The notes under the pieces were generated by a model that was not told the DNA's origin, did no database searches, and saw nothing but the letters and a program-made list of their open reading frames with translations. A stretch of 37,527 nt of DNA from a virus: the IMG/VR virus record IMGVR_UViG_3300002835_000494, positions 1 through 37,527 of that record; one strand, given 5' to 3'. The number at the start of each line of letters is the position of its first letter. The first letter of the stretch is position 1. Both the position numbers and the translations under genes were made by a program. Shown here in pieces: positions 6,107 through 27,800 of the stretch.

Positions 6107-6114
6107 TATTTATT
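6107..6114 (-). promoter_or_regulatory. Late-promoter-like octamer (AATAAATA) before the assembly chaperone gene
   Basis: One mismatch from TATAAATA, overlapping the endonuclease stop codon (TGG-TAA-TAAATAG) and about 20 nt before the chaperone start at 6087, with AGAGGA between. It resembles the 18325 and 29212 arrangements. Confidence 0.3.
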
Positions 6115-6619: not shown

Positions 6620-7122
6620 GCAAGACGCCAGCAATCTCTATAAGTATTGTCTTGTGGTAACTGATCCCTCTTGACAATACGGAACATTTGTCTATTGTAT
6701 TTATATTTAGGATGCCATACTCTGGCTGGCATGTCCTTCATGATTAGGTACTCAATAGCCTCTTCTTCTGTCATAGGACCAATAGGCTTTGACATTAGAT
6801 ATTCTTTGTAGTCAAGAACCTTCTCCGAAACGATCCGCTTCTCCAGTCTGATTTGCTGGGACTCTAAGAAGGTGGTTTCGATCTTCTCACCATCTTCGGT
6901 TTCCAGTTCTAATTTCATATTGTGGTGATCTTCGATTGACGGAAGAATACCACCGTTAAGGGCGCAAGCCATCCATTCTGGTGATGCTACCATTTCCTTG
7001 ACTGGCGCATCTGGTTCGGCTGGATCTTCGAACACAACCACATAGTTTGGCTGCTTTGGTTCGAGGTTCTCGGCTGCCCATTGCAGTCTTGTGAACATAT
7101 CTACATTACTAAGATCAATCAT
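6616..7122 (-). CDS. Conserved phage protein of unknown function, possibly fibre-associated (168 aa)
   Basis: I do not recognise this family with certainty. An acidic soluble protein: MIDLSNVDMFTRLQWAAENL, a hydrophobic strand NYVVVFEDP, a charged central part, then the helix MTEEEAIEYLIMKDMPARVW and the basic C-terminus RQMFRIVKRDQLPQDNTYRD ending CWRLA. The ending resembles the (I/L)-P-x-(D/N)-(R/N)-T-(F/Y)-R-(N/D)-x-W motif seen near the end of small proteins encoded beside phage tail fibres, so a fibre-assembly role is a guess. The start at 7122 is preferred over the ATG at 7128 because AAGGA is then 6 nt upstream rather than abutting. Its stop overlaps the homing endonuclease start. Confidence 0.6.
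   Translation of the reverse strand: MIDLSNVDMFTRLQWAAENLEPKQPNYVVVFEDPAEPDAPVKEMVASPEWMACALNGGILPSIEDHHNMKLELETEDGEKIETTFLESQQIRLEKRIVSEKVLDYKEYLMSKPIGPMTEEEAIEYLIMKDMPARVWHPKYKYNRQMFRIVKRDQLPQDNTYRDCWRLA
6698..6705 (-). promoter_or_regulatory. Late-promoter-like octamer inside gene upstream of the homing endonuclease
   Basis: TATAAATA lies within codons for Tyr-Lys-Tyr of the 168-aa protein, about 80 nt before the HNH-AP2 start. T4 homing endonuclease genes are often under late promoters, so this is a reasonable candidate, but it could equally be codon choice. Confidence 0.35.
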
Positions 7123-7131
7123 TGTCATTCC

Positions 7132-7701
7132 TTATTCATAGAAACAGCTTAAAGTTCCTGCATCGAAAGTATCGCCTGTGAAAACACGAAGCTGTGTTAG
7201 TGTTCCACTTAATGATTTTGAAAATCCAAATGTTCCTGTGTGAGCACCGTCGCTGCGACCATAAACTCCATTTACCACCCATAAGTTAGTAGAAGAACTG
7301 ATAAGAGTAACGATTGCTGTTCCGTGAGTGGAAGCACCTGCTGATGCTGTATAAACTATTTGTGCGTATGCCGTTGGATTTAATCCACCTGGCGATGATC
7401 CACTAACAATAGATGATATCGAACCAGAATAACCAGTGGTTTCAATACCAGAAGCTGTGCCCAATCTTATAGCAACGTCATTTGTGCCGCTGGTACTCAT
7501 AGAAGAAAAACCAATTGTAATACGTCTAACCCATGAAGGTATATTAGTAAAGTCGATATTCTGACCACTGACTGATACAGGAGAAAAACTAACCAAAGTG
7601 CCAACTCTCGCAATACCATTCGTAGGCGTCTGCGGATCCACAATCGTCGCTGTGTTAGATGCTGTAAGTGTGCCGAGTCCGGCTGCTCTAATGGTTGACA
7701 T
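7132..7701 (-). CDS. Small tail-fibre/adhesin-like protein, DFTGIP/DTFDAG family (189 aa)
   Basis: After a short N-terminus (MSTIRAAGLGTLTASNTATI) comes the family core: VSVSGQNIDFTNIPSWVRRI, TIGFSSMSTSG, and a final strand pair LTQLRVFTGDTFDAGTLSCFYE near the C-terminus. The same signature (DFTGIPVGVKRITVVFNGIS and GADTFDAGSVNVLYE) closes the product of 9412-9933. I recall this C-terminal domain from many phage fibre or tip proteins. The Gly/Ser/Thr-rich centre differs between the two and may hold the variable binding loops. Virion-associated adhesin or tip is the likely role. SD-like AAGGA is near the end and serves the following gene. Confidence 0.75.
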   Translation of the reverse strand: MSTIRAAGLGTLTASNTATIVDPQTPTNGIARVGTLVSFSPVSVSGQNIDFTNIPSWVRRITIGFSSMSTSGTNDVAIRLGTASGIETTGYSGSISSIVSGSSPGGLNPTAYAQIVYTASAGASTHGTAIVTLISSSTNLWVVNGVYGRSDGAHTGTFGFSKSLSGTLTQLRVFTGDTFDAGTLSCFYE

Positions 7702-7710
7702 AATCTATCC

Positions 7711-8112
7711 TTATCTGAAAACGGCTGTGCAAATTGTGGGTAGATCATACCAGCTACCTGCCCAACCATAGCAACCCACGCTTAAACTGGTTGATAATAC
7801 TCCATTTGTAAAATGAATGGCGTTTTGTGTTCCATTACCATTTCCTGCGCCGTCATCTTTACAAGTTAATTGACCCGAAGCGAAACTGTCGTTCATAGCA
7901 TTTGTAAAGTTGGTAGAAAACTGACCTGTGCCATTATCAGTTAGGCTACTGACATTGAAACTAGCATTAACTGTCGCTGTTCCAGTACCGTTAAAGTTAC
8001 ACCAACTTTTAGCAACACCATATACAACCTGTGGTCCAGTAACAGATGGTCTACTCTGTCCTGTAGTCTCTCCTGTTTTCCATGTAAAGTTGTCTGCTTT
8101 GATGTTTGACAT
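7711..8112 (-). CDS. Small tail-fibre/adhesin-like protein, W-x-N-(F/Y)-N-G family (133 aa)
   Basis: One of four paralogues within 3 kb (the others are at 8122, 9944 and 10352). N-terminus MSNIKADNFTWKTGETTGQS; family core from about residue 35: AKSWCNFNGTGTATVNASFN, VSSLTDNGTGQFSTNFTNAM. The C-terminal part is variable and Gly/Trp/Cys-containing (VGCYGWAGSW), ending TAVFR. The core reads as a beta-sandwich domain starting at W-x-N-(F/Y)-N-G and running through (N/S)-V-S-S-(L/V)-T-x-x-G-T-G. It is known to me as a common phage fibre end domain without a named ligand. It lies 9 nt after its paralogue's stop. Likely a trimeric tip. Confidence 0.75.
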   Translation of the reverse strand: MSNIKADNFTWKTGETTGQSRPSVTGPQVVYGVAKSWCNFNGTGTATVNASFNVSSLTDNGTGQFSTNFTNAMNDSFASGQLTCKDDGAGNGNGTQNAIHFTNGVLSTSLSVGCYGWAGSWYDLPTICTAVFR

Positions 8113-8121
8113 ATTTTACCC

Positions 8122-8520
8122 TTAACCAACTAATAAGGTGTGAACTAGAGTATAATTATAGAATTGGATATTACCTGATGAAAGGCCATATCCTGAATAA
8201 AAACGATAAGATGATGTTGCTAATATATATGGATGTGCGCCTCCATCATCATCTGCTAGGTTACTACTGGTATCACCTACTGACGATCCTATACAATAAT
8301 TGCTATTAGACACAGAAGTTGTTAGATTGTTTGTATAATCTCCGGTACCGTTTCTGGTAACAGAAGAAACATTAAAACTTCCATTAACTATTGGAGTAAG
8401 GCCGTTATAGTTACACCACGCTTTGGTTAGCTGACCAATCTCTGTGCCGCTGGTGTTTCTGAATACCGTGGGTGTCGATTGTTCTGACTGTAGAACGTCT
8501 GCTTTTACTGTGCCTGCCAT
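8122..8520 (-). CDS. Small tail-fibre/adhesin-like protein, W-x-N-(F/Y)-N-G family (132 aa)
   Basis: The start at ATG 8520 is chosen because it overlaps the upstream stop as TAATG and yields MAGTVKADVLQSEQSTPTVF, matching paralogue starts; an ATG five codons earlier is possible. Core: LTKAWCNYNGLTPIVNGSFN, VSSVTRNGTGDYTNNLTTSV. It then diverges: the ending is Ser/Tyr-rich (YRFYSGYGLSSGNIQFYNYT). Compared with the neighbouring family member at 7711, the core is conserved while the last about 50 residues are unrelated, the pattern expected of a scaffold carrying a variable receptor-facing part. Function inferred. Confidence 0.72.
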   Translation of the reverse strand: MAGTVKADVLQSEQSTPTVFRNTSGTEIGQLTKAWCNYNGLTPIVNGSFNVSSVTRNGTGDYTNNLTTSVSNSNYCIGSSVGDTSSNLADDDGGAHPYILATSSYRFYSGYGLSSGNIQFYNYTLVHTLLVG

Positions 8521-8765
8521 TATAGAACCGTCCATGTAGCGCCATTGGCGACTGTCACAGTTCTGTTATTAGCGACTGTGATAGGACCAGGCGTCATAAA
8601 GTTGTATGTATTGCTAACAGTAACATCAACATTGATAGTTGGTGTGCCACCAAAGAATGGTAGAGTTGTTAGTTCAATATCCGATGAAATGCCAGCAGAG
8701 TCTAACGAGATAGCGGCGTTAGGATTAGATGGGTGTTGTAGGTTTACGAGTTTCAGTGTGGACAT
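8520..8765 (-). CDS. Very short fibre-like protein with shared C-terminal module (81 aa)
   Basis: The start at 8765 (TAATG with the upstream stop) gives MSTLKLVNLQHPSNPNAAIS; the longer in-frame start would add MGDCTV, which is the upstream coding end in another frame. The N-terminus resembles the MSTLKVDNL starts of other array members. The C-terminal about 30 residues, YNFMTPGPITVANNRTVTVA ending ATWTVL, are the same module that ends the products of 2458, 10766 and the giant fibre. The protein thus consists of little more than an N-terminal beta segment plus this module. It could be a minimal fibre cap or a trimerisation peptide. No other function is visible. Confidence 0.65.
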   Translation of the reverse strand: MSTLKLVNLQHPSNPNAAISLDSAGISSDIELTTLPFFGGTPTINVDVTVSNTYNFMTPGPITVANNRTVTVANGATWTVL

Positions 8766-9379
8766 TACTGTGCAATCTCCCAAACGGTCATCTGGATTCT
8801 AGCAGATGAACCCGTATAATTATATAAAGCATTACCAGTTCCGTTGATAATTACTGTGCCGGCGTCGATACCACCTCTTACTGAAATAGTATCGGTAGTT
8901 GTTCCCCATGATGCAAAAGAGTTATTAAGAGATAGGCACGACATATTCAGATTGCCAGCAAAATGACTATACAAAGGTGATCCGCTGTTTGCCGCAATAA
9001 AATTACCACCTCTCCATAGAGCAAGCCATACTCTATCACCGCTGTTTGCTTCTTCTGACAATGCAATAGTGCTGGTCTGTACCAGAATTAAACTACTTGC
9101 ACTTAATGGTGTAAAGTTTAGGGAGAAGATTTGAACACCATTAGTAATTGTGGAAGGAGCACCAGCCGTACCACCTGACAAAACGCCATCAAGAGTATTC
9201 ACCTGCACTTGAATGACACAACCCGTAGGCAATGCAGCAGCCGGAATAACTCTGCTGGTAGCACCTGTTGTAATCAGATTGCCATTTTCAGCAGGCGCTT
9301 TAATAGTATATGTTGACGCCGTTGAAGGAACATCAATTGATACTGAACCACCACCTGTAGAGTTTAGCTTAATTGGCAT
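8765..9379 (-). CDS. Small tail-fibre/adhesin-like protein (204 aa)
   Basis: MPIKLNSTGGGSVSIDVPST, then STYTIKAPAENGNLITTG, is a fibre N-terminal pattern (K-L-x-S-x-G-G-x-S-V, followed by a T-x-P-A-x-x-G-x-L-I-T-T-G turn) that I have seen in many phage fibres. From about residue 53 comes LPTGCVIQVQVNTLDG, counterpart of the PGHIIQVVNT strand in the 1338 family; FSLNFTPLSASSLILVQTST parallels the ITPxSxxSKI core. It ends RIQMTVWEIAQ. It is therefore a divergent member of the EI-(A/G) family. Interior loops rich in Asn/Ser/Gly/Trp may contact the receptor. Virion role inferred. Confidence 0.72.
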   Translation of the reverse strand: MPIKLNSTGGGSVSIDVPSTASTYTIKAPAENGNLITTGATSRVIPAAALPTGCVIQVQVNTLDGVLSGGTAGAPSTITNGVQIFSLNFTPLSASSLILVQTSTIALSEEANSGDRVWLALWRGGNFIAANSGSPLYSHFAGNLNMSCLSLNNSFASWGTTTDTISVRGGIDAGTVIINGTGNALYNYTGSSARIQMTVWEIAQ

Positions 9380-9411
9380 ATTCTATCTCTCAAATCTCTT
9401 TGTATTTAGTC

Positions 9412-9933
9412 TTACTCATAGAGAACATTGACTGAACCAGCATCAAACGTATCAGCACCATTTGTAGTCAACCTTAAACGATCAACTGCACCTGATAATG
9501 TAACGCCGCCCGCACCAAAATGTATTCCCTGATAAGACCCGCCTGTAATTGCAACACTACTTTGTGATGTCCAACTGTTGCTTCCCAAAAGGGTTATGAA
9601 CATCGAACCATACAATATATTACCGGCAATACCAGTCCATCCAGCCACTGATGTTACGGGAAACCCCGTAGATATTGTACCACCAGAAGTACTACTGTAT
9701 GCACCATAACCAGAGACACAGCTATAACCACTAGTCTGCAAACTTCCAGACCCAAGTTGAACTTGTATGATAGCCGTTCCGGTTGCCGAAATGCCGTTGA
9801 ATACAACAGTAATTCTCTTAACACCAACAGGAATACCAGTGAAATCGACAGCGGTACCAGAGGCATTCTGTGCCGTCATGCTATTCAGAACACCAGTTGT
9901 AAGTAGATTGTTGCCGTCTAATACGATTGCCAT
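9412..9933 (-). CDS. Small tail-fibre/adhesin-like protein, DFTGIP/DTFDAG family (173 aa)
   Basis: Paralogue of the 7132-7701 product. MAIVLDGNNLLTTGVLNSMT opens the protein, followed by SGTAVDFTGIPVGVKRITVV, FNGISATGTAIIQVQLGSG, then a Gly/Ser/Tyr-rich variable middle (residues about 65-140) and the closing GADTFDAGSVNVLYE. Both family members end with the same strand turn (G-D/A-D-T-F-D-A-G) within a few residues of the C-terminus, so the tip interface is conserved and the middle is free to vary. It is separated by 32 nt from the following gene, with an ACTAAATA octamer in the gap. Likely a trimeric adhesin. Confidence 0.75.
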   Translation of the reverse strand: MAIVLDGNNLLTTGVLNSMTAQNASGTAVDFTGIPVGVKRITVVFNGISATGTAIIQVQLGSGSLQTSGYSCVSGYGAYSSTSGGTISTGFPVTSVAGWTGIAGNILYGSMFITLLGSNSWTSQSSVAITGGSYQGIHFGAGGVTLSGAVDRLRLTTNGADTFDAGSVNVLYE

Positions 9934-9943
9934 TGTCTATTCC

Positions 9944-10342
9944 TTAGTTACCGAATACGTTTGCTGATAAAAACGGACAATCATTTCCCGCCGAGGACAT
10001 ATTGGACGATTGAACTGTAGCTGTGGATACAGTGTTTGTGTTATTTCTACCAGAGGCAAGAGTTACGTTTGTAGTACCGGAAGTCCATTCTGCGGTTGCA
10101 ATCGGCGCATAATTAGCATCCGACATGCTGTTCGTAAAATTCAAAACATAGATACCTGTGCTACTTTTTGTAACACTACTTATATTATAAGATGCTCTAA
10201 CGGCTGGAGTTCCGCCGCCATTGTAGTTTAACCATCCTAAAGAATTAGTCGTCTTACCATTACTCTGTAACTTCACAATACCACTACCATCTGCGGAAGT
10301 GATAAGGCCGTTTGTTGCTTGTGCGTTGATTGTTACTGGCAT
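9944..10342 (-). CDS. Small tail-fibre/adhesin-like protein, W-x-N-(F/Y)-N-G family (132 aa)
   Basis: Third family member. N-terminus MPVTINAQATNGLITSADGS followed by GIVKLQSNGK; core LGWLNYNGGGTPAVRASYNI, SSVTKSSTGIYVLNFTNSMS, DANYAPIATAEW. The middle (about 35-85) matches the 7711, 8122 and 10352 products. The last 45 residues (Thr/Asn/Ser-rich, ending FLSANVFGN) are unlike them. The N-terminal N-x-x-x-x-x-G-L-I-T-S-A-D-G-S-G pattern differs from the paralogues, showing that heads and tails have been exchanged around a constant core. Probable fibre tip; ligand unknown. Confidence 0.75.
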   Translation of the reverse strand: MPVTINAQATNGLITSADGSGIVKLQSNGKTTNSLGWLNYNGGGTPAVRASYNISSVTKSSTGIYVLNFTNSMSDANYAPIATAEWTSGTTNVTLASGRNNTNTVSTATVQSSNMSSAGNDCPFLSANVFGN

Positions 10343-10351
10343 TGTTATCTC

Positions 10352-10756
10352 TTATCTGTGAACCGAGACATGTAAATAGTTGCTGTCTGTGGCTGCATTA
10401 TTACTATCTCTTGTTTCCAAACTTGCCCTTCCTGATGTTTGTGTTCCTGCGGCTGTATCGCCACATCCAGGATAGGCGCCGCCATAATTGTTTGGCTGTG
10501 CGTTAGCGTTTGTTGCATGTTGTGAATCGGTCATTGAAGTTGTAAAAGCGATAAGATAGTAACCAGCAGTTCCTCCACGAGTAACACTGGATACATTGAA
10601 ACTCACTCTTACCGCAACAGAACCTGATACACCGTTAAAGTTTACCCACGACTTACAGATTTGACCTATCTCTACACTGTTACCATCTCTAAAAACAGGA
10701 GCAGTAGCCGCTACTGAACCTTGTACCGTATCGCTATAAATCGTTCCGTATGGCAT
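10352..10756 (-). CDS. Small tail-fibre/adhesin-like protein, W-x-N-(F/Y)-N-G family (134 aa)
   Basis: Fourth family member, starting MPYGTIYSDTVQGSVAATAP and FRDGNSVEIGQICKSW. The segment P-x-F-R-(D/N)-x-x-(S/G)-x-E-I-G-Q-(I/L)-x-K-(S/A)-W is shared closely with the 8122 product (TVFRNTSGTEIGQLTKAW), so those two are the nearest pair. Core: VNFNGVSGSVAVRVSFNVSS, VTRGGTAGYYLIAFTTSMTD. The end (DSNYLHVSVHR) is variable. It lies 9 nt after the stop of the preceding gene, each cassette carrying its own SD-like GGAGA. Likely virion tip protein. Confidence 0.75.
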   Translation of the reverse strand: MPYGTIYSDTVQGSVAATAPVFRDGNSVEIGQICKSWVNFNGVSGSVAVRVSFNVSSVTRGGTAGYYLIAFTTSMTDSQHATNANAQPNNYGGAYPGCGDTAAGTQTSGRASLETRDSNNAATDSNYLHVSVHR

Positions 10757-10765
10757 AATCTCTCC

Positions 10766-11059
10766 TTATAGAACCACAAATTTACTATTAGCTGACACAG
10801 TAATAGACACACCGTTAGGTAGTGTTAAAGGACCTACTGCCAATGCGCTGGTGCTGGCAGGAATTGTATATGATACTGCCAATGTCTGACCATTAGTTCT
10901 AATAGGAAAGTCACTTGACCACTGTGTACCATTATAAGTTTCCAGTGTCTCTAATGTAGTATTAAAGCCTGTTTGCCCCTCGACTGGCGATGCTGGTCTG
11001 GTTGCTGTAGACCAAGTCGGAAATGTCGCACCAGTAGTTCCGTTTAATACGATTGGCAT
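10766..11059 (-). CDS. Short fibre-like protein with shared C-terminal module (97 aa)
   Basis: First small gene after the giant fibre. N-terminus MPIVLNGTTGATFPTWSTAT; then RPASPVEGQTGFNTTLETLE and TYNGTQW, a phage fibre pattern (R-P-x-x-P-x-x-G-x-x-G-(F/Y)-N-T-x-x-x-x-x-E-x-Y-x-G-x-x-W) also found near the end of the giant fibre (RPGTAANGMIRYNTTLNTFE). The C-terminal ALAVGPLTLPNGVSITVSAN ending KFVVL is the module shared with the 2458, 8520 and giant-fibre products. In effect it is a free-standing copy of the giant fibre's last about 90 residues, suggesting duplication of the fibre end. Role inferred as a tip. Confidence 0.72.
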   Translation of the reverse strand: MPIVLNGTTGATFPTWSTATRPASPVEGQTGFNTTLETLETYNGTQWSSDFPIRTNGQTLAVSYTIPASTSALAVGPLTLPNGVSITVSANSKFVVL

Positions 11060-11068
11060 TATCTCTCC

Positions 11069-14000
11069 TTACACCACTGTCCAAGTTGAACCAGTTGGAA
11101 TTGTAATTGTAACACCAGCACCAAGTGTTACAGGACCAGCAGTCATGGCGTTCTTACCACTTGTGATAGCATAATCTGAGGTGATGTTTGCTGTGTTCTC
11201 ATAGAAAGCATCGTCAGAACCACCACCAGTTGCACCACCACCGATAGCACCCCAAGTACCAGCTTTATAACCTTCGAAGGTATTTAGAGTAGTGTTATAA
11301 CGGATCATACCGTTAGCAGCCGTACCGGGTCTTGCTGCGGTTGGTCCGGTTGGAACTGTTAGACTGTTATTGACAGTGAACAGAACGTTACCAGAAACAG
11401 TAAGTGTTCCGTAGTATGTGGTTGTGCTATTGGCTAGTAGTGTGTTAGCATATGAGTAACCAGCATTGGCTACAGCATAAGCGGCATTAGCAGTATTTGA
11501 TACTGGATTGATATAGCCAGTAATGATAGCAGCTTCAATAACCGATGATGATGGATTAGTTTCAACCCATGAACTGGTGTTAGCTGGATCGGTATAGTAG
11601 ATGAACAGCTTACCAAGATCAGAGTTCCACCATAGACGACCAGAAGAAGCACCAGTTGGAGCAGTCTGACCGACATTGGCACCACCAGCATTTGCTCTAT
11701 CATATGCAGCGTTAGCAGTTAGATATGCATTGTTAGCAGTTCTAAATGCAGGCTCAACTTGAGGAGCAACGTTGTTAGCCACAGCAAAAGCAGCATTGGC
11801 AGTATTGAATGCCATGTTTGCTGTATTGTAGCTTGGTGTTACCTGTGGAGCCACATTGTTAGCGGAATCAAAGGCAGCATTAGCATGAATGAAGGCTGCA
11901 TTACTGTTAAAGTATGCCAAGTTAGCTGTGTTATAACTTGGAGCAACCTGAGGTGCTACGTTATTAGCTGAATCAAAGGCAGCGTTGGCAATGTCATAAA
12001 CAGTATTGGTTACTGTCCAGTTAGAGTTGACAGAAGCATAGATTGTATTACCTAAGCTATAAGCAAGGTTAGCGTTCTGATAAACAGGAATGATAAAGCT
12101 GGTATCAATTCCTACCTCTGATGGGAAAGCCTCTACCCACTGTGCCGAATCGGCATCAATGTAGTAAATGTATAGCTTACCACTCTCGGTATCCCACCAC
12201 ATATTACCACCAGCTGGTAGTGAAGGAGCGGTGTTGCTTACCTTGACAGAAGCGGTACCAAGTGGAATGCCATTGATAAGAATGTTAGAAGCGTTGATAG
12301 AACCAACAACGTCAATCTTGTAGTTTGGATCAGTTCTACCGATACCAATGTTAGCACCACCAGCACCGTCTTGAATACGGAGAACTTCATTACCAGCTAA
12401 TGTGCCACCAGTAAAGAATGATAGTGACTTATAAGCGGTAGAGTTAGCGGTACCAATTGCAAGATTGCCGTTTGATGTATAGAGATAACCATCATGGGCA
12501 CCAGCAATGGTGAAACCAGGATTTGCAAATTGAGATGAATTGATACCAAGATCAATATAATCGCTTGTATCATCACCATCATCCGCAGTTGCAACGAAGT
12601 CAGAAGAAGCCTCTGAACCAGCGTTAGCATTACGGATGTTTAGCTGTAGATAAGCGTTCTCTGAACCTTCAGCACTAAAGACCGCACCAGCCAGAGTGGT
12701 GGTTGTAGCACCGTTAGCAATAACAGTGACAGGATACAGTGGATTAGTTGTTCCGATACCAACAAAGCCATACTCGGTGATTGTTAGAATTGGAATGTTA
12801 CCAACACCATGATTGAATAGTGTTAGACTATCGTTAGCACCGACTGAAATACGACCGACACCCTCAACATAATCGACTACGATACCATCAGTGAATGGTC
12901 CTCTGTAATCCCAGCGAGAATAAAAGCCATTGTTGGCGGTAGTAGAACCAGAGATCGTTAGATTACCAGCAAATGTTCCTGTAGTATTGGCAAGAGCATT
13001 GTTAGCCTTACCAAACGCTGCATTAGCTGTATCGTATGCATTATTGGCTGTACCATAAGCTGGTGCAAGAGTATTAGCAGCCGCAAATGCCGCATTAGCT
13101 GTATCATAGGCATTGTTAGCGGTACGATAGCTTGGAGCAATTTGTGGTGCGACATTGTTTGCCGAAGCGAAGGCAGCGTTAGCGGTGTCAAATGCTACGT
13201 TTGCTGTATTGTAAACGATAGAAACATTTGAACGTGTAGCATATGTCTCAGCCGAATATGTATTGGCAGAAGCACCAACAAAATTAGTATAGCTGTTACC
13301 AGCGGCACCGACTTGCTGTGAATATGCATTACCAGCAGCAGCGTATAGTTCAACTAATGTATTAGATGCGATATATGTTGAAACAGACTGTGCGGTGTTG
13401 CCTGAAATACTCCACTGTTCGGATGCTTCGATCCAAAGCAATGCAGCATTGGCGCTCTTGTTACCACGATTGACTTCCAGACCAGCATTATCAACTGGCA
13501 TGACTGACATTGGTAGATCAGCATTGAGTGTAAGGATATTATCGCCAATTTGTAGCTGTTGAGTGTTAGCAAATGTGGTTGTGCCAGAAATGGTAAGATT
13601 ACCAGAGATTCCAACATCACCAGAGATTAGGCCGCCAGTTTTCTTATAGTAAGTGGCATCGGCAAATGTATTAGCGGATGCACCAACAGTCTCGGCATAT
13701 GAGTTACCAGATGCACCAACAGAATTGGTATAGTTGTTTCCAGCAACACCAACCGAATTGGTATAGTTGTTACCAGCAGTTCCAACTGTATTAGCCCATG
13801 CATTAGCACCAACTGCGTTATTAGCGGCCAATACGGAAGCATAGTTATTACCAGCGGTGGTAACTGATAGCATGTAAGCATTGCCAGCAGCACCTACGGA
13901 ATCGGTGTAATTGTTTCCAGCAACACCAACTGTATTAGCCCAGTTATTGGCACCTACAGCATTATTAGCAGCAAGGATTGAGGTGTAAGTATTGACTGAA

Positions 14001-17000
14001 AGACCAACAGCGTCGGTGTAGTTATTGCCAGCAATGCCTACTGTATTAGCCCATGCGTTCGCTGCTACAGCGTTATTAGCTGCAAGGATAGAAGCATAGG
14101 TATTTGATGATAGACCAACATGATTGGTATAGTTGTTACCGGCTGCACCAACGGTATTGGCCCAGTTGTTTGCTCCGATTGCATTGTTAGAAGCAAGAAT
14201 GGAAGCATATGTGTTAACTGATAGACCAACATGATCGGTATAGTTATTGCCAGCGGTTCCAATAGCAGTTGCTAAACTATTTGAGGCTGCTCCAACAGAA
14301 ACAGTATAGTTATTACCCGCTGCGCCTACGGAATCGGTATAGTTGTTACCGGCAATGCCTACAGTATTGGCCCAGTTGTTAGAACCTACGGCATTGTTAG
14401 CCACAAGGATTGATGCATAGGTATTGACAGACAATCCTACATGATCAGTATAGTTATTGCCTGCGATACCTACTGTGTTTGCCCAGTTATTGGCACCAAT
14501 AGCGTTATTTGCTACAAGAATAGAGGTATAGTTATTACCAGCAAGACCAGTAGCATTTGAGTAAGCATTAGCCGCAGCAAAACCTACGTTAGCATTGACA
14601 TAGGCTGCATTAGCCTTATCGAAGGCACTTGAAATTGTATGAATGGCATTAGCACCACCAAGGAATATATTGCTGGTGATTAGATCAGCATTAAGAACGG
14701 CCAGCGTAAAGTTGTTGCCAGCATAGTCAATGTAGTTACCATGAGGTTCTTCACTATACTCTTGGAATAGATAGTATTCTTTGCTGATATGAGAACGATA
14801 TAGACCAGTATGAACGTTAATGCTTGATGCATTGACATAGTTAGCCACAAAACCGATATCGACAAGATCGGTAGCATAGTTGTTAGCAGCAAGATAGATT
14901 AGCGAGTCGCCAACTCTTAGTGTCTGGGAATCATTGAAGAAAACGTTACCAGCAACATAGAGATTTTGATTGATGCTAACATTACCGGTGACAGTGATTT
15001 CACCTGTAATAGTTTGATCAGGATCGTTTAGCTTAACATAAGTTGCATCGGCATATGAATTGGAAGAATTGACCATGAAGCCAGCATAGCTATTAGCTGA
15101 CATACCAACTGTGTTAGCCCATGTATTTGCACCGATTGACAAAGCATTAGCATTAGCGTATGCTGCGTTTGCCAGTGTGTAAGAAGCATTAACAGTTGCA
15201 TATACTAAGTTCTGGACTTCCCAATTGGAATTTGTGGAAGCATAAACAGTATTGGTTAGGTCATAGATAGCGTTCTGGACAACCCAGTTAGAGTTACTGG
15301 AAGCATATACAGTATTGGTAAGATCATAAAGAGCATTTTGAACTGCCCAGTTAGAATTACCGGAAGCATAAGCGGCATTAGTCAAATCATAGTTTGCATT
15401 TGCCATAACATAGTTGGCATTTACAGTAGCGTAAACTAGATTTTGAACTGCCCAGTTAGAGTTAGCTGAGGCATATACTGTATTGGTTAGATCATAAACG
15501 GCATTCTGGACGGTCCAATTAGAATTGACCGAAGCATATACGGCATTAGTGGTGTCATAAGCCGCATTGAGTGTGGTATATCCAGCGTTAGCCATATCAT
15601 AGTTGGCATTGACGGTGGCATATACAAGATTTTGGACAGTCCAATTAGAATTAGCGGAATCATATGCTGCATTGACAGTGGCATATACTGCATTGCTCAA
15701 CTCGTAGTTGGCATTTGCCATTGTGTAGTTAGAATTTAGTGTATCATATGCAGCGTTGCTTAACTCATAGTTGGCATTTGCCATTGTGTAGTTAGCGTTA
15801 ACCGTAGCATATACTAAGTTCTGGACGGTCCAGTTAGAATTGATTGATGCATATGCGGAATTGGTAAATGCATAGTCGGCGTTAACGGTAGCATATGCAG
15901 CATTAAGCGTTGCATATGCCGCATTACCCATTACATAACTGCTATTGACAGTAGCGTAGACTAGATTTTGAACTGTCCAGTTAGAATTAGAAGATGCATA
16001 TACAGCATTAACAGTATCATAAGCAGAGTTGAGGGCAACATAGGCTGCATTGCCCATAACGTAGTTGGCATTAACTGTTGCGTAGACAAGGTTCTGGACA
16101 ACCCAATTAGAATTTGCTGATGCGTATACCGCATTGATAGTATCCTGTGCTGAACCAAGATCGGTATTAGAAGCGATGTAGGTTGTGATGGTCTGTGCTA
16201 CGTTTCCAGAGATTGACCACTTTTCAGCGGATTCATCCCAGAGTAGAGCAGCATTGGCTTTTAGACCACGATTGATTTCGATACCAGCATCTTCCAGAGG
16301 AACAGCGTTGAGAGGAAGATCGGCATTGAGGGTGATGATGTTATCGCCAACCTGTAGCTGTCTAGTATTAGCGTATGTAACTTCACCGACAATGAATAGA
16401 TTGCCAGTAATTCCAATATCACTTGAGATTAGCTGGAGCGATGGAGATGATAGCTTAACATATGTGGCATCTGTGTAAGCATTGGCAGAGTTTGCCATAT
16501 AGCCAGCATAGGAATTAGCTGACAATCCAACAAGATTAGACCAGTTGTTTGCTCCAATAGCTAGTGAGTTAGCATTGGCATAAGCTGCATTAGCTAAGGT
16601 ATAGGAAGCATTTACTGTTGCATAAACAAGATTTTGAACGGTCCAATTTGAGTTTGCGGAAGCGTAAACGGCATTAGTTGTATCAAAGGCAGCGTTTAGA
16701 GCCTCGTATGAGGCATTGCCCATGACATAGCTGCTATTGACAGTTGCATAAACAAGATTTTGGACTGTCCAATTGCTGTTGGATGATGCGTAAACTGTAT
16801 TGGTTAGATCGTAAAGAGCGTTCTGAACCTGCCAGTTAGAATTAGATGATGCGTAGGCTGCGTTGATTGTATGATAGGCAGCGTTGCCCATAACATAGGC
16901 AGCATTAGTGGTTGCATATAGGGTATTCTGGACTGCCCAGTTAGAATTAGCGGAATCATATGCAGCATTGGCTGTATTAAAGGCAGAGTTCAATGCTGTA

Positions 17001-17956
17001 TAAGAAGCATTGGACATAGTGTAATCTGCGTTTACAGTTGCATAGATTACATTCTGTATATCCCAGTTTGAATTTGATGAGGCGTAAACAGCATTTACGG
17101 TGTCATATGCAGCATTAAGAGCAACATAACCAGCGTTGCCCATGACATAGTTACTATTGACTGTGGCATAGACAAGGTTCTGCACTTCCCAATTGGAATT
17201 TGCGGAAGCATAGATTGTATTTGCTAATTGATAGACAGCGTTCTGGACAACCCAGTTAGAGTTTGAGGAGTCATAAACAGAATTGGCTGTAGAATAGAGG
17301 GCATTCTGTACCGCCCAATTTGAATTGGAGGTATCGTAAACAGTGTTAGCAACTGTATAGAGAGCGTTCTGGACTTCCCAGTTTGAGTTGGCTGTAGCAT
17401 ATACGGCATTGACAGTATCGTAGGCTGAGTTAAGAGCAACATAAGCTGCGTTACTCATTACATAATCAGCGTTTACGGTAGCATAAACGAGGTTCTGGAC
17501 TGTCCAGTTGGAATTGATAGATGCGTAGGCTGCATTAACGGTGCTATAAGCTGCATTAAGTGTAATGTAGCCAGCATTAGACATAACATAGTTAGAGTTT
17601 ACAGTAGCGTAAACGAGATTTTGAACTGACCAATTAGAGTTTGCAGAAGCATAGACAGCGTTAACTGTTGCGTATGCGGCATTTAGCGTCACATAACCGG
17701 CATTAGACATCGTATAGTTGGCGTTAACCGTGGCATAAACCAGGTTCTGGACTGCCCAATTGGAATTAGATGATGCATAGGAATAGTTTGCTACGTTAGC
17801 AGCACCATTCGCATGATACCAGATTGGAATAAGGTCAGTAGCTAATGCTACACCAGCCATTGAACCAGAACCACCGTTGGTGATCTGGATTCTGTTTTTA
17901 GATGTTGTGGTGACGTTTACTTTGTTATCACCGCCGGTTGTGATTTTGATTGACAT
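11069..17956 (-). CDS. Giant repeat-rich tail fibre (2295 aa)
   Basis: A long fibre. Residues 1-50: unique N-terminus (MSIKITTGGDNKVNVTTTSK), probably the attachment end. About 55-470 and 595-925: uninterrupted heptads of the form N-x-x-(Y/W)-x-x-x, for example NLVYATV, NANYVMS, NSNWTVQ, with about 22 NSNW units overall. About 500-595, 980-1095 and 1437-1525: beta domains; the first and third are near-duplicates (QLQVGDNIITLNADLP and QLQIGDNILTLNADLP, both followed by ANAALLW and WSISGN). About 1120-1437: 11- and 15-residue repeats (VGIAGNNYTDH type). From about 1525: NNVAPQ/TANNAYDTANAAF linkers, GIGTTNP and GIGRTDP modules, two LWW/MWW-type modules, and a final GPVTLGAGVTITIP...WTVV module. 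Probably a homotrimeric coiled-coil shaft with a beta tip. The frame is intact throughout. Confidence 0.88.
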   Translation of the reverse strand: MSIKITTGGDNKVNVTTTSKNRIQITNGGSGSMAGVALATDLIPIWYHANGAANVANYSYASSNSNWAVQNLVYATVNANYTMSNAGYVTLNAAYATVNAVYASANSNWSVQNLVYATVNSNYVMSNAGYITLNAAYSTVNAAYASINSNWTVQNLVYATVNADYVMSNAAYVALNSAYDTVNAVYATANSNWEVQNALYTVANTVYDTSNSNWAVQNALYSTANSVYDSSNSNWVVQNAVYQLANTIYASANSNWEVQNLVYATVNSNYVMGNAGYVALNAAYDTVNAVYASSNSNWDIQNVIYATVNADYTMSNASYTALNSAFNTANAAYDSANSNWAVQNTLYATTNAAYVMGNAAYHTINAAYASSNSNWQVQNALYDLTNTVYASSNSNWTVQNLVYATVNSSYVMGNASYEALNAAFDTTNAVYASANSNWTVQNLVYATVNASYTLANAAYANANSLAIGANNWSNLVGLSANSYAGYMANSANAYTDATYVKLSSPSLQLISSDIGITGNLFIVGEVTYANTRQLQVGDNIITLNADLPLNAVPLEDAGIEINRGLKANAALLWDESAEKWSISGNVAQTITTYIASNTDLGSAQDTINAVYASANSNWVVQNLVYATVNANYVMGNAAYVALNSAYDTVNAVYASSNSNWTVQNLVYATVNSSYVMGNAAYATLNAAYATVNADYAFTNSAYASINSNWTVQNLVYATVNANYTMANANYELSNAAYDTLNSNYTMANANYELSNAVYATVNAAYDSANSNWTVQNLVYATVNANYDMANAGYTTLNAAYDTTNAVYASVNSNWTVQNAVYDLTNTVYASANSNWAVQNLVYATVNANYVMANANYDLTNAAYASGNSNWAVQNALYDLTNTVYASSNSNWVVQNAIYDLTNTVYASTNSNWEVQNLVYATVNASYTLANAAYANANALSIGANTWANTVGMSANSYAGFMVNSSNSYADATYVKLNDPDQTITGEITVTGNVSINQNLYVAGNVFFNDSQTLRVGDSLIYLAANNYATDLVDIGFVANYVNASSINVHTGLYRSHISKEYYLFQEYSEEPHGNYIDYAGNNFTLAVLNADLITSNIFLGGANAIHTISSAFDKANAAYVNANVGFAAANAYSNATGLAGNNYTSILVANNAIGANNWANTVGIAGNNYTDHVGLSVNTYASILVANNAVGSNNWANTVGIAGNNYTDSVGAAGNNYTVSVGAASNSLATAIGTAGNNYTDHVGLSVNTYASILASNNAIGANNWANTVGAAGNNYTNHVGLSSNTYASILAANNAVAANAWANTVGIAGNNYTDAVGLSVNTYTSILAANNAVGANNWANTVGVAGNNYTDSVGAAGNAYMLSVTTAGNNYASVLAANNAVGANAWANTVGTAGNNYTNSVGVAGNNYTNSVGASGNSYAETVGASANTFADATYYKKTGGLISGDVGISGNLTISGTTTFANTQQLQIGDNILTLNADLPMSVMPVDNAGLEVNRGNKSANAALLWIEASEQWSISGNTAQSVSTYIASNTLVELYAAAGNAYSQQVGAAGNSYTNFVGASANTYSAETYATRSNVSIVYNTANVAFDTANAAFASANNVAPQIAPSYRTANNAYDTANAAFAAANTLAPAYGTANNAYDTANAAFGKANNALANTTGTFAGNLTISGSTTANNGFYSRWDYRGPFTDGIVVDYVEGVGRISVGANDSLTLFNHGVGNIPILTITEYGFVGIGTTNPLYPVTVIANGATTTTLAGAVFSAEGSENAYLQLNIRNANAGSEASSDFVATADDGDDTSDYIDLGINSSQFANPGFTIAGAHDGYLYTSNGNLAIGTANSTAYKSLSFFTGGTLAGNEVLRIQDGAGGANIGIGRTDPNYKIDVVGSINASNILINGIPLGTASVKVSNTAPSLPAGGNMWWDTESGKLYIYYIDADSAQWVEAFPSEVGIDTSFIIPVYQNANLAYSLGNTIYASVNSNWTVTNTVYDIANAAFDSANNVAPQVAPSYNTANLAYFNSNAAFIHANAAFDSANNVAPQVTPSYNTANMAFNTANAAFAVANNVAPQVEPAFRTANNAYLTANAAYDRANAGGANVGQTAPTGASSGRLWWNSDLGKLFIYYTDPANTSSWVETNPSSSVIEAAIITGYINPVSNTANAAYAVANAGYSYANTLLANSTTTYYGTLTVSGNVLFTVNNSLTVPTGPTAARPGTAANGMIRYNTTLNTFEGYKAGTWGAIGGGATGGGSDDAFYENTANITSDYAITSGKNAMTAGPVTLGAGVTITIPTGSTWTVV
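13640..14600 (-). repeat. Hendecad/pentadecad repeat tract of the giant fibre
   Basis: 33-nt units encode 11-residue repeats (VGIAGNNYTDH, VGLSVNTYASI, VGAAGNNYTVS) alternating with 45-nt units encoding 15 residues (LVANNAVGSNNWANT). Periods of 11 and 15 residues suit coiled coils with less supercoil than heptads. Confidence 0.85.
15180..17800 (-). repeat. Heptad repeat tract of the giant fibre (N-x-x-Y/W-x-x-x)
   Basis: About 21-nt units encode heptads with Asn first and Tyr/Trp fourth, interrupted only by a beta domain at about 16170-16450. Super-units such as NSNWxVQ-NLVYATV-NxxYxMx-NAxYxxL-NAAYxxV recur. The protein period is nearly exact while the DNA copies differ at most synonymous positions. 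Confidence 0.9.
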
Positions 17957-21847: not shown

Positions 21848-24800
21848 TTATATCTGTAGTGCAATTGCTCTCAAGTCACCAACACGAGGATAAACCGCTG
21901 TGTTGTTCTGTGTATTGACAATACCAATCTTGACAGCGAAATACTTATAACCTGTGAACTTAACGCCAGCAGAGTTAGTGTATTCAACCTCACCATTGGT
22001 GCCTGTCAAGTTAGCAGTAGCAAAGCCGTATGTATATTCCTTGAAGTCATTTCTGAAAGCAAGTGATGAATAGACATCGCCTGAGGTTCTTGATAGTTCG
22101 ATCCATGGTGCATTTTCAAATAGTGTGGAATCTTCACGATGTAGGATCTTGATCCAAACCTTAACATCTGTGTTTGGTGGACGATATGCAGTTAGAACTA
22201 CCTGGATATCTTCTGCGTCCTGACCTTCCGCAAGTGTAACAGTTCTGGAGATGTATCTATTAATTAGTTCACCACCAGAAGCGGCTGTTTCACCACCAGA
22301 GTTGGCAGTAATGACGTTATCAAGATAGATTGTGTGTGTTCTACCCATATCTAGGACAGGTGAAACACCAGTCTTGCCAGATAGGAATGTTGCTCTAACT
22401 TGATTTGATCTAGCACCACCAAGGACGGCTGTTTCATTGCTCTTAGAATGTAGAGCCTGTTCGGCATCATAGTAGTATGTTTCTGATGGCTGAACGGAAA
22501 CGTAAGAACCTTCTACGCTGGTGTTTGAGTAAGAACGCATCTGGAACTTTAGGTCAGTGTCTTTGAATGACATTGTGCCTGGCTCAAATGAGATAGCAGA
22601 GTATCTATAGTTCTTAACTTCACCGATTACGGCATTGTAATCTGGGTTGGTGATGCTAAAGATATAGTCATTGGCACTAAAGTTACCGTCAGAGTTGGTC
22701 AACTGTGCGATGCTGTAAGTGATAGCAGCATTTGTGGTTGGACCATCAACATAGTAGTTTAGAACACCACGGCCATATGAAACAGAGGTAACGTTAGCTG
22801 AAATGCCACGATAGACATTGTTAGCAGCATAGACGTTAATTGTTTCACCAACGGAGTATCCAGTGTTAGACATTGAATAGGTTGAGCCGTTGATTGCAGA
22901 TACGGAAGAGTTTGCAAGAGATGTTACACCCTTTAGAATATCTGTAGTCTGAATTGTTCCGTTTGATGATAGAACAAGTTTAGCACCAGTGGTGAATACA
23001 TCACCCTGTCTTGGCTTGAGGCTCTTTGTTCTGCTTGATAGTAGCAGATTTTCAACAGGCTTGTTACCAAGAATAGCTTCACCTTCTGTATTAACAGCAA
23101 AGTTTGCTCTATAGAACTTACAAGTTAGATCAACGTCGGCAATGATATCCCAGTTGATGTTATTGTTAGTCTGGAAGAATGTACCAGTATTACGACGGTT
23201 GTTAAACTGACCCTTGCCATTAAGATCGGTCTGACCCAACTTGGCAGTCCAGAAATATGTATCTGGGTTACCATCGACAGGGTGAATGATAAAGGCATAC
23301 ATTGTATTGTGATACAAGAAGATTGGTGCCTTAAACTTAACGTTTAGAGGATTAGTCTTACCATCTGTAGAGATTGGAATCTGTGTAACATCTTCGTACC
23401 AAACCTCTGAGAATGGTACCTGGTTGCGGGTGATTGTACCACCAGCGGTCATTTCACGGATTTCAAACCAAATACCCTTGTCTCTGATACGAGAAACGAA
23501 AACATCAACAGAGGTCAGGAACATGCCTTCTTCACCATCGGGTGCCAGTGACAAGAATGAGTAAGCGGAACAATGCTTACCTCTTGGTGGAGGTGGTGGT
23601 GGAGCGGCAATATCTTGGAATGCGTTGCTGCTATATGTTTCTTCAATTTCCTTATCGTAGTAATCGATATGTCTTGATGAATAGATTGTTTTCTGTTTTG
23701 TTACTGCGGTGCCAGAAGCAAAGAAGAATGAACGACCACCAGTTGATAGATCGTCAGATGCACCAAGCGGTGAAACCGATGCTTCATTGACTGGTACGAA
23801 TGTATCTGCAATAACCAAAGCACGACTACCTGTGCGGAATTTCTTCTCTGGTGGTAGACGCAACTGGAAGTATAGAGTGCCATTTTCGTCAGTAACAAGA
23901 TCAGAACCTTCGGCAGACCATGGACCTTCTGGTAGTGTATTCTCAACACCATCAGTAATAGCGGTATACTGATCTGAGGTGATTGGTCTTGAATAAGCTG
24001 ACATTGGCTCATTGTCAAAGAATGACCAAACCTTGGTGAATGGCTTCATTGAGGTACATGCTACAGTAATAACCTGTGGACGAATGTAAGGAACCACCTC
24101 TGTATTGATGATCTTATATCCGCTTTCGGCACTTTGTGTCTGGTCAGACATCCAGTGTTCTGTACCGGTACGGACATTGTTATAGATGGTTTCAATAGAA
24201 ACACCACGACCATTACCTGGTGGGTTTAGAGAGTTAGCAACGTCTCTGGCTTCGTCGTATGTTCTATAGAGATTGCCGTAGTTATAGGCGCTTCTATTTG
24301 AACCGTTACCTGTGTAAACACGGTAACCAACAACATACTTGTTCCAAGCATTCCATTCGGTGCTGGTTAGAACGGATTGGTTAGTTAGAACGTTTGTCTG
24401 TGTCCAGGTGCCGAGATTGATTTGCTCGTCTGGTGCGGTTGTAACGTCAACCCAAACGTCCTGCTCTGGGAACAATCTAACCTGACCAACGAATAGCCAG
24501 TCACGGCGTTCGACGTTACGATCAGAGGTTACCCATGACTGATTCCATAGAAGTTCTTCGGAATATGTTAGTGTAACAAGGTCATCATTCTTGACGGTGT
24601 TTGTGCCACTGACATAATCATAGCCGAATGAACTCATGGTGTATAGTGGTCGAAGAACCTTTTCTTCTGGATCCACACAGATATGATGATCATTATTATA
24701 TGTGGCTGCTAGTGACTGATCACGGAAGGAATCTGTAAAGATACCATTCTTAAATCTGTCAAGACCATTATCATCAAGAATTAGCAGGTCATTAGCTGCC

Positions 24801-27800
24801 TTCTCCAAGATTGACAATGATGTATAGTATTCAAGATTGACAATACGCTGCTTAAGTGTACCAATGTCACGCATGGTAAATCTGGCGTTTGACATCTTCT
24901 TGGTTGATGTTGCTAGATCGGAGCGATTGATTGATGCTGCATAAGCGGGTGACAATGATGGATACGGAACAATATTAAGAACCGCAATTGTCATTGTACC
25001 AGGTATGCTATCTGGTGTAAGTGGGAAGTTACTTGGAATACCAGTGATTACTTGCCAGTTTTTGTCCTTATCAACTACGAGCAAGTCCTTACGACCGAGA
25101 TAGGTTGTATAGTCATAAGTAATCTGGCTTGAAGATGCTGGTATTCTCAAACCATTTGTTGAGTTCTGATATGCATAAGACTTGGTTGGGTTTTCAGTAC
25201 CAGAAGCTGGTGTTGTGGTATCTGTTGCTGAATTTGTCTTAACTGGTCTAAAGTCGAGATAGTTACGGAGATTAAACTCTTTACCGCTAACTGGTGACTT
25301 ATAGACTGGAACATTTTCAGTTCTGATATTTGTGGCAGAATTGAATAGTGCATCATCATCTTCAATTGGATATGAGTCAATTGAGAAGTAACCAGCACGA
25401 GATGTAAAGTTTGGTTCAAAGTAATCAAGTTCGACCAATAGTCTATCGGATGATGTTAGACCAATACCAGTTGGTGTAATAGTACCATGATCATAGTAGC
25501 TATCACGCTGACCGTTATCAACCTTGAATAGAGATGTAACGTCTGTGCCAGCGGTGTTAGATGCTGGATAAGAACCAGAACCAAGTCTAATGCTCTTAAC
25601 TTGATAGACATCAGAGAAACCAAGATCGTATGGACCAGTGGTGCCTGCGGTGTTACAGTTAATTCTTACGTAACGACCAGCTTTCTTCTGCTTCTCAAGT
25701 TCCTTAGCAGATGTTCTAGCCATCTTATATGTAAGAGTAGCGTTTAGTGTAGATGGGAATACTTCTTTAAGGTCAAATGTTAGAGCGCCAGAAACACCAG
25801 AGGTTGCTGTGACAGTTCTGGTTGCACCAGCGGCTGAACCCTTGCCGGTCATATCAACGATATCACCAACCTTGTATGCCTTAAAGTAAGTGTTACCTGA
25901 AAGACCTGTTGGTAGACCACCAACAACTGACAATGATGTGTCGTTAGTGATAGATGAAATGTAATAAGTTCTGGTATTACCAGCAAACTCTAGCTTGTCA
26001 CCAACATTCAATCTGGTAAATGCTGTACCAACACCGTTTAGTGCGGATGTACCAGCAGTACCATTAACAGTACCTGACATGGTGATATTGGCAGCGGTGT
26101 CTAGTGTTAGTAATAGTTCCGTTTTCTGAGTTGATGATAGTGAACCTGTTCCGTATGGAAGAGTTTCGTATGTGCTACCATCAGAATAAGTGAATGTACC
26201 ATTAGCTGCAATTGGAGAAATGGTAGCAGTCTTGTTGAAATAGAATGTGGTTGCATTAACAGCGGAGTCATCAATGTCTCTAACACTCTTAACATATTCG
26301 TCACCAACATAGTAAAGCATCTGAGAATTGTTGACATCAGTTAGAACGGCGCTACCAGATTCCAATACAACGTCTGCATAACCATCAGCGGCGGGACTGT
26401 CATAGTAAACGCTTCTTACATTGGAGAAGCTATTGCTTCCCAACATATTAATGTCCATTAGGAATAGATTGTATTGTCCGCTATAACCAGGAATACCAGT
26501 TGAGTATTCGATAGATGCTACGTTAGCAGTACCGATAACCTTACCGGTTGGTGTGGTGGCACCTGACCATAGATTGTTAGCAATACGATCCTGAACTGTA
26601 TCATATAGCTTGATAGGTGCACCCTTGTCTAGTGTCCATGAGCCAACAAAGTCATTGACTGTGACATATGAACCTAGTGTAGCGGAAGCAATCTGTTCTC
26701 TATATTCGGAAGTAGCAAGACCTTTTTCGATCTGTAGTTCTGCGGTATCAAGATTGTTGATTTCATAACCTTGAACATAACCAAGACCAGCAGATACGCC
26801 GACGAATAGTAGACTGTTATTACCATTGGCATAACGACCAAAGTTAGAACCTGTATCATCATGCTCTCTAAGCTGAACATCTAGACCACGGACAACATAG
26901 TCACCAGACTGGTCATATAGACGCTTGGCCATTTCATCTTGAATGATGTTATACTGTGAACGTTCAAAGTATGACTTAACAACACCATTCTCAATGCTAA
27001 ACAATTCTACGAAGTCAGGAGCACCGATTGGATCATCATATGTTCTAACAGTTAGAGTTGGTGTTAGCTTTAGACGATCAGCACCAGGTGCGGCATAGTT
27101 AGATGCCTCTAGAGCAGGATCAAGTAGTGAGGTGTCCTGTGAGGCGTTAATGATATCTTCCGAAACAAAGAAACCAACCTTACAAGACGGATTTGGATTA
27201 TATCTATCGAGAATAACTGACTGGGTTGGGAATGAAATGAAGTGGTTCTTAGCAAAGAAAACACCTTCATCAATCTTAAATCTTGAACCAAAGCCTGTAG
27301 CACCAGTGTCAAGGACAACTAGTGTCTTAGTTACACCATTAACATTGGCAGATAGTGTTTCACCAGAGGTAAAGATTTTCTGAATGTTATTTGAACTTGA
27401 TGTGGTCTTATACTTAACGTATAGTGTCTTGGTGTTTGAACTTGACTGTGAACCAGATAGAACATCAACAACCGCAGCGGTAATGTTTGATGTAGCGCCG
27501 ATAACATCAACACCACTAAAGTCACTGATAGTAACGCTAGTGTTAGATGCGTCAAAGTCTTTAACCTTAACGTAACGAATGCCTGAACCTGTATTTGCAC
27601 CACCATGTGTCTCAAGGGTAAACCCACCTGGGATGACAATAGAACCTTCTTTAAATACGTGCTTGCCGAAACGATTGATCTGTTCCTGAAGGGTAGACTG
27701 AATTTGTGTTAGTTCACGAGCCTGAACCGCATAGCCTGGCTTGAATAAGATTCTATAATAGTTACTGTCAATTGTATAGTCGTCATAGTAAGGTGTAACA

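Follow-up and report, generated by a model that had tools for sequence, protein, structure and literature searches.

In pelagimyophages and cyanomyophages, the host recognition cluster (HRC) is described as a hypervariable fibre island downstream of VrlC in T4-like phages (PMC7029224). For metaviromic islands (PMC3909814) and flexible phage gene modules (PMC7468147), C-termini are described as varying more than N-termini. In the branched tailspike complex of the Ackermannviridae (PMC11414711), conserved N-terminal docking domains set the place of each tailspike and variable C-termini recognise polysaccharide receptors; the same conserved N-termini let whole tailspike genes be acquired. The locus considered here is a set of four short, paralogous minus-strand genes between positions 7711 and 10756 of a 37,527-base viral DNA (hereafter the window), which is a whole IMG/VR viral contig (IMGVR_UViG_3300002835_000494) with a contig edge falling within the fibre region. 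We consider it likely that these genes encode short tail-fibre tip proteins, each composed of a slot-specific tag and an exchangeable tip, and that the tips are receptor-binding elements swapped by recombination.

Slot-specific tags and a shared tip domain

The four genes are numbered as slots in transcription order: slot 1 is 10352 (10352..10756, 134 aa), slot 2 is 9944 (9944..10342, 132 aa), slot 3 is 8122 (8122..8520, 132 aa from an internal ATG) and slot 4 is 7711 (7711..8112, 133 aa). On the minus strand the order is 10352 and 9944, then 9412, 8765 and 8520, then 8122 and 7711, and then 7132. An earlier, sequence-only reading of the window had called the four genes non-contiguous and interleaved with other families. 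Genes 9412, 8765 and 8520 do intervene, but the four form two adjacent pairs (10352 with 9944, and 8122 with 7711). The reading frame of 8122 opens at an ATG at position 8535 (137 aa), overlapping the end of gene 8520; the start shared by the family is the internal ATG at position 8520.

All four proteins match the profile of phrog_11355 (131 positions; E 1.9e-13, 4.4e-19, 1.2e-13 and 1.9e-17 for slots 1 to 4), as do 95 of 95 aligned relatives, and all four also match the middle of phrog_3484. The function given to phrog_11355, 'tail fiber protein', is annotation only. Smith-Waterman scores for the six pairs of genes (109-158) are well above the maxima obtained from 1000 shuffles each (73-84), which bears out the proposed common core of about 50 residues, measured here at ~48. 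Its invariant residues include W, N, N-G, S, N-x-S-S, T and T-G, and the motif AWVNFNGTGTVAIRASFNVSSITDNGTGDYTVNF is the consensus of the 95-row family alignment (93 rows picked from 120 non-redundant open reading frames, ORFs, plus window-clade relatives). This motif is frequent in marine phage fibres. Between the window paralogues, core synonymous sites are near or beyond saturation (synonymous divergence, dS, 1.76 to infinite), and the constancy of the core exists at the protein level only.

Pfam returned nothing for three of the four tip proteins and a sub-threshold DUF281 match for 7711 (E 0.022), and a sequence search of solved structures gave two meaningless matches (E 0.9 and above). 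No PHROG labelled gp38 appeared among the matches of the four genes at E up to 1, a search that included no direct comparison with gp38. Named phages were of little use because short DNA matches occurred in 2 records and the protein search gave partial matches in 11. Cultured phages that carry the family include Nitrincola phage 1M3-16 (gene M316_0113) and Octadecabacter virus DB2 (gene 12).

The family alignment, in the numbering of 10352, carries a mean of 1.71 bits of information per residue at positions 1-34, 3.12 bits at 35-82, 0.93 bits at 83-123 and 1.93 bits over the last 11. In slot 1 these divisions are the N-terminal tag (aa 1-34, 10655..10756), the core that forms the first half of a beta-sandwich (aa 35-82, 10511..10654), and a hypervariable segment (aa 83-123) with a conserved last strand (aa 124-134; both within 10355..10510). 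Tag and core, the latter placed by alignment, occupy aa 1-34 (10241..10342) and 35-79 (10106..10240) of slot 2, aa 1-32 (8425..8520) and 33-76 (8293..8424) of slot 3, and aa 1-34 (8011..8112) and 35-78 (7879..8010) of slot 4. The C-terminal parts had been described as largely different, which is true of their hypervariable stretch and not of the whole: across the 95 members an Asp is kept in 97%, the last strand is kept and usually ends in F-R, and a weaker T-T-S-x-x-R anchor persists in the middle. As aligned, the C-terminal part is a hypervariable segment closed by the conserved Asp and last strand.

The slots were compared across four phages, namely the window and its syntenic variants L086 (contig 3300042482_000005), L087 (3300048694_000038) and L095 (3300042540_000112, slots 1 and 2 only). 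The comparison covered 14 proteins in slots 1-4, with slots permuted within phages; L092 and L093, almost identical to the window, did not enter it, nor did L082, which was found later. Identity of the N-terminal part was 68.1% within the same slot (18 pairs) and 19.9% between different slots of different phages (54 pairs; P = 0.0004). The corresponding values were 43.6% and 44.7% for the core (P = 0.71), and 17.3% and 15.8% for the C-terminal part (P = 0.25). At the level of protein identity, the N-terminal ~34 residues are shown to track genomic slot, and the core and C-terminal part do not. A description of the family as a constant core with both ends exchanged was rejected for the N-terminus at the same P value, and the earlier proposal of duplication followed by end swapping keeps its swapping and breakpoints and loses the equivalence of the ends. 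Only the N-terminus marks the slot; the core and C-terminal part together make up one predicted beta-sandwich tip of ~100 residues.

Tags are 51-86% identical among the slot-1 genes of four phages, 64-94% among the slot-2 genes of four, 44-73% among the slot-3 genes of three and 57-74% among the slot-4 genes of three. The slot-1 tag is also found in the more distant L082 (E 6.6e-18), where slot-1 and slot-2 tags stand in the same order behind a similar fibre end. Slot-1 and slot-3 tags are related to each other (34-54%), and slot-2 and slot-4 tags are unrelated (8-21%). Within the window, 8122 and 10352 alone have an N-terminal segment in common, as had been noted (43% over the N part, against 13-16% for other pairs); the P-x-F-R motif quoted for it is present in 10352 as P-V-F-R, and 8122 has P-T-V-F-R instead.

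In a tree of the N part, each of the four slots lies on one side of a branch, with starred support for slot 2 only, and in the core+C tree no slot does. One tip type is shown, by its sequence identity, to be present in two slots: slot 3 of L087 carries a 10352-type core and C-terminal part, 81% and 67% identical, respectively, to window slot 1. In L020 and L070, one core+C type (core 91%, C 92% identical) occurs in two N contexts (N 32%). L119 and L048 have slot-2-like tags on proteins that lack the core.

Tip replacement between near-identical phages

DNA identity between the window and L086 has the form of a square wave. It is 97-100% through 10766, drops at 10352, returns to 100% through 9412, drops in 8765, is about 90-95% in 8520, drops again in 8122, 7711 and 7132, and is 98-100% from 6616 on; most swapped stretches are at about 30-65%. 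No differences at all separate the two phages in 9412 (173 codons) and 4272 (479 codons); 5713 differs at two synonymous sites, and 6616 at four synonymous and two nonsynonymous ones. In the tip genes, by contrast, dS is 1.3-3.2 and nonsynonymous divergence (dN) 0.53-0.69, and 8765 and 7132 are likewise close to synonymous saturation. Saturated synonymous sites beside identical genes mean that the allele of a distant phage has taken over at these places, and tip replacement between near-identical phages with flanks intact is shown by these alignments. Metaviromic islands are recognised by diverged alleles in an otherwise near-identical phage and by under-recruitment of metagenomic reads; the first of these features is present between the window and L086. 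Per-site dN/dS was abandoned as uninterpretable because dS is saturated in the array, both between window paralogues and between the window and L086.

The same divergence might be attributed to duplicated genes whose ends then diversified rapidly through point mutation, the core being under purifying selection and exchange playing no part. The core is indeed strongly conserved, C-part identity across the family is near the shuffled level (20.9% vs 19.0%), and arms-race selection on a domain could drive fast evolution. Such a process does not explain why the tip genes reach this dS when 9412 and 4272 have no differences, nor why one core+C type occurs in two slots and another in two N contexts. 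Fast divergence, which the sequence-only reading had offered as one cause, is refuted as the main cause of the differences from L086 and may contribute over longer times; as a full account without exchange, we regard it as extremely improbable.

In the window clade, compared with L086, the replaced stretch starts at codon 35 in 9944 and at codon 30 in 8122 and reaches the stop in both; in 10352 it covers codons 6-133, nearly the whole gene. In 9944 and 8122 the start lies just before the core W, so that tag and core part company in this clade, and in all three genes the end of the replaced stretch is the stop itself or no more than two codons from it.

A wider family was assembled through a pattern search of viral contigs, which matched 384 stretches, 289 of them encoding a relative, and from which 80 loci were kept. 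These loci contain one family member in 24 cases, two in 31, three in 17, at least four in 7 and, by profile, none in 1, and 61 of 91 neighbouring member pairs are adjacent on the same strand; short tandem arrays are therefore typical of the family. Pair statistics used the 152 members with the W motif out of 168 unique ones, and core identity in them is inflated because the loci were found via core patterns. C identity is unrelated to N identity, with a median of 24-28% per N bin (10,340 between-locus pairs), and C reaches at least 40% in 4 of the 69 pairs in the bin of 80-100% N identity.

In 44 pairs chosen for N-part DNA identity of >=80% and C-part identity under 35%, the best change point lies +38 to +44 codons after W in 29, -5 to +1 in 5 and elsewhere in 10; four of the 5 are pairs among the window, L047/L095 and L086. 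Identity returns to >=85% over the 137-300 nt after the stop in 12 of the 44. The break position at +42 alone is no proof of crossover because constraint ends there too; unlike break position, near-identical flanks on both sides, as read from the aligned DNA, do prove it. Breakpoints at the core edges, which the earlier reading had anticipated, are thus present both before the core W (9944 and 8122) and at the 3' core edge (29 of 44 pairs).

A recurrent breakpoint at codon +41 to +44 after W, seen in much of the family, is also what a shufflon crossover site would give. Variation might accordingly be produced by a dedicated generator, either reverse-transcriptase mutagenesis by a diversity-generating retroelement (DGR) or recombinase-driven switching of C-terminal cassettes. 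Reverse transcriptase (PF00078) and serine recombinase (PF00239) were found in 0 of 6 records, all of them fragments, in a search that did not extend to tyrosine recombinases; the respective controls matched in 3 and 10 of 14 genomes. The family ORFs of the window are all complete, and no silent C-terminal cassettes were seen, with no dedicated search for truncated cassettes in relatives. The replaced C-termini are near shuffled identity and are not mutated copies, and we give a dedicated generator hardly any credence.

The window contains a further candidate cause, a free-standing HNH endonuclease gene (6113-6634, minus strand; phrog_99, E 1.2e-51) between 6616 and 5713 that is not at the corresponding place in L086 or L087. 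Free-standing phage endonucleases are described in PMC2988022 as cutting hundreds or thousands of bp from their own gene, with co-conversion. A homing endonuclease of this kind could cut the locus of a co-infecting phage and co-convert flanking genes. Identity between the window and L086 is, however, 98-100% directly beside the insertion and at 4272, and the swapped stretches alternate with unswapped genes, a pattern that a single tract does not give. We therefore judge this explanation very unlikely. As a separate observation, the window and the empty HNH site of L086 show synonymous differences at the end of 6616, over its final three sense codons and its stop (R-L-A-stop), as if the HNH element had carried in its own version of the 6616 gene end.

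Predicted fold and proposed role of the tips

The AlphaFold model of 10352 is a beta-sandwich (pLDDT 85.6) whose strands one to four come from the core; the rest of the same domain is made up by the hypervariable segment and the last strand. The later strands of the 7711 model (pLDDT 71.8) are as in 10352. With VIA-align 2, both models find their best solved-structure match in the C-terminal domain of the phiAB6 tailspike (for 10352, Z 8.2, rmsd 2.5 and 84 aligned residues; for 7711, Z 9.0, rmsd 2.9 and 89 aligned residues, the next other entry being at Z 5.6), and the matches that follow are other tailspike or fibre ends. H-type lectins appear for 10352 at Z 5.6-5.9 (Helix pomatia agglutinin 5.7, SLL-2 5.9), tied with tailspikes, and are absent from the listing for 7711; H-type lectin is also not among the 25 of 31 Pfam families listed for the 95 members. 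Foldseek matched 65 viral predicted structures, several of them named tail fibres. With moderate confidence, the predicted tip fold is that of a tailspike or fibre tip.

The tip proteins might instead serve as decoration, chaperone or capping subunits of a fibre, with variation that follows the fibre partner and not host receptors. They are short, have no long shaft and lie beside a 2295-aa fibre-like gene, and the PHROG label 'tail' alone goes further. The final 1406 residues of the 2295-aa product, however, are 97% identical to those of L086, and all four tips differ, so the tips do not co-vary with it. The same domain is also the C-terminus of longer proteins in other phages (e.g. 371, 397 and 454 aa), and the fold matches tailspike C-terminal domains. 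A decoration or chaperone role is thus unlikely in our assessment.

In the favoured interpretation, that of receptor-binding tips swapped by recombination, the ~34-residue N-terminal tag would fix the docking place of each protein in the tail, and the exposed tip would use its hypervariable segment to bind a receptor on the host surface. When phages co-infect a cell, homologous recombination between them would exchange the tip of one slot at a time by crossing over where sequence is conserved (tag, core or gene boundary), changing specificity while assembly is retained.

Several observations weigh against this interpretation. The window clade comprises only four distinct phages, and in approximately unbiased (AU) tests on core+C, slot 3 is the only one whose monophyly is rejected at the 0.05 level (p 0.026; 0.069, 0.22 and 0.061 for slots 1, 2 and 4), which makes the tree-based test of exchange weak. 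The slot-3 tag of L087 resembles slot-1 tags (34-54%) as closely as it does the remaining slot-3 tags (only 44-47%); at 46% to window slot 1 and 47% to window slot 3, it is not decisive. The three-segment breakpoint fit is degenerate for 7711, and the 44 pairs of the wider family overlap, are non-independent and were preselected for low C identity, with downstream identity under 85% in 32 of them. Some neighbouring genes are intermediate relative to L086 (dS 0.39 in 8520 and 0.77 in 2935), so the whole region is mosaic and exchange is not confined to tips. On the structural side, the 7711 model is the weaker one and its first two strands are not formed, the best Foldseek E-value against the PDB is only 0.016, with no PDB match under E 0.001, and Z values of 8-9 barely exceed the level that the tool calls common. 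Both the location of the tips in the virion and their receptor binding are points that we infer.

A more far-reaching possibility, which we advance tentatively and would not call probable, is combinatorial receptor display. A short peptide address would dock one tip at each fixed place, four or more tips of the family would be shown at once, and tips would move freely between slots and phages because the tip would be a module apart from the address. In L119, slot-2 tags are joined to a 9412-type domain, which suggests that the address system may accept unrelated tip folds too. If the division into slot tag and tip is right, a short N-terminal stretch would tell the place of a receptor protein and ~100 residues would tell its binding target, which is a testable rule. 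Slot tags could then reveal, from metagenomes alone, the number of receptor tips per uncultured phage and the frequency of exchange, and the conserved core would be a handle for collecting thousands of natural tip variants of one fold.

The array in its phage context and among known systems

The genes around the tips bear on how four copies arose. A 9412-type fibre gene follows each core pair: 9412 (9412..9933, minus strand) is identical in L086, and its paralogue 7132 (7132..7701, minus strand) is replaced there from about codon 64. The Smith-Waterman score of the two is 215, against a shuffle maximum of 89. A short gene heads each block, 10766 (10766..11059, minus strand, 97 aa, 100% aa identical in L086) and 8520 (8520..8765, minus strand, 81 aa, 98.8% aa identical in L086), and the similarity of the C-half of 10766 to 8520 is weak and inside the shuffle range (56, maximum 68). 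The repeated duplication suggested earlier is best supported in the form of one block being copied (short gene, core, core, 9412-type gene). The pair 9412 and 7132 is good evidence for this, the related tags of slots 1 and 3 fit it, and 10766 and 8520 do not support it. Judged by gene order and similarity, this origin is likely but not proven, because 10766 and 8520 score within the shuffle range and the slot-2 and slot-4 tags are unrelated.

Between the blocks, gene 8765 (8765..9379, minus strand) has a conserved start and a replaced remainder: its first 52 aa are 66% identical in L086 and L087 and the rest is unmatched, with DNA identity of 100% and then 39%. Its first ~50 residues recur in L086, L087, L097, L099, L100 and L101, and its remainder in the window matches PF05475, the C-terminal domain of Chlamydia Pgp3, below threshold (E 1.9e-4). 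On the far side of the array, the minus-strand fibre genes at 3220-4290, 2458-2931, 1910-2461 and 1338-1913 show either a conserved start with a variable remainder or whole-gene divergence relative to L086, L096 and L097. In L096 and L097 (3300046786_000097 and _000069) the array from 10766 to 5713 is gone, and the fibre gene is followed directly by genes like 2458, 1910, 1338 and 4272; entire fibre-gene cassettes are therefore replaced too. phrog_11355 was not found in a 172-kb relative of L099 either; some of these phages thus lack the array.

Upstream of the array lies the gene of the 2295-aa fibre-like product (11069..17956, minus strand), a repetitive protein with degenerate N-A-x-Y and S-N-W-x-V-Q-N repeats, whose relatives show numerous internal DNA self-matches. 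Farther upstream is a homologue of the T4-like baseplate protein VrlC (21848..27844, minus strand; phrog_358), the landmark of the HRC. Its closest named relatives at the protein level are Ochrobactrum phage vB_OspM_OC (41.6%), Caulobacter phage Cr30 and Pelagibacter phage HTVC008M, and its aa 1-515 are 36.6% identical to the VrlC of HTVC008M (tblastn). From its gene content, which includes baseplate wedge genes, the VrlC homologue and many tail-fibre families, the window is identified as the baseplate-to-fibre part of a T4-like myophage.

The likeness to the HRC is therefore in layout: the window has a VrlC homologue and, downstream of it, fibre genes. At its opposite end the HRC is bounded by the neck gene gp14. 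The difference is that the accessible text of PMC7029224 treats the island as a whole and mentions no set of four short genes that have slot-specific tags and a tip domain in common. Metaviromic islands and flexible modules show the same evolutionary pattern; the present array differs from them in that each of four paralogues from a single family is exchanged independently of the others at its fixed slot, and in that one tip type occurs in two slots. In the T-even adhesin locus, conserved motifs reportedly serve as crossover sites through which hypervariable recognition segments are exchanged. Compared with the T-even adhesin gp38, the window domain appears to belong to another beta-sandwich family and is present in several copies per phage.

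No description of an array of short slot-tagged tip genes of this family was found in the literature searched. The closest mechanistic parallel appears, by analogy, to be the branched tailspike complex of the Ackermannviridae. Its docking domains (XD, TD and anchor) and tailspikes are large, in contrast to the window tags, putative docking elements of ~34 residues on proteins of ~133. Modular exchange of tail fibres is already known; four short genes with one tip fold and one address per slot are an unusual form of it.

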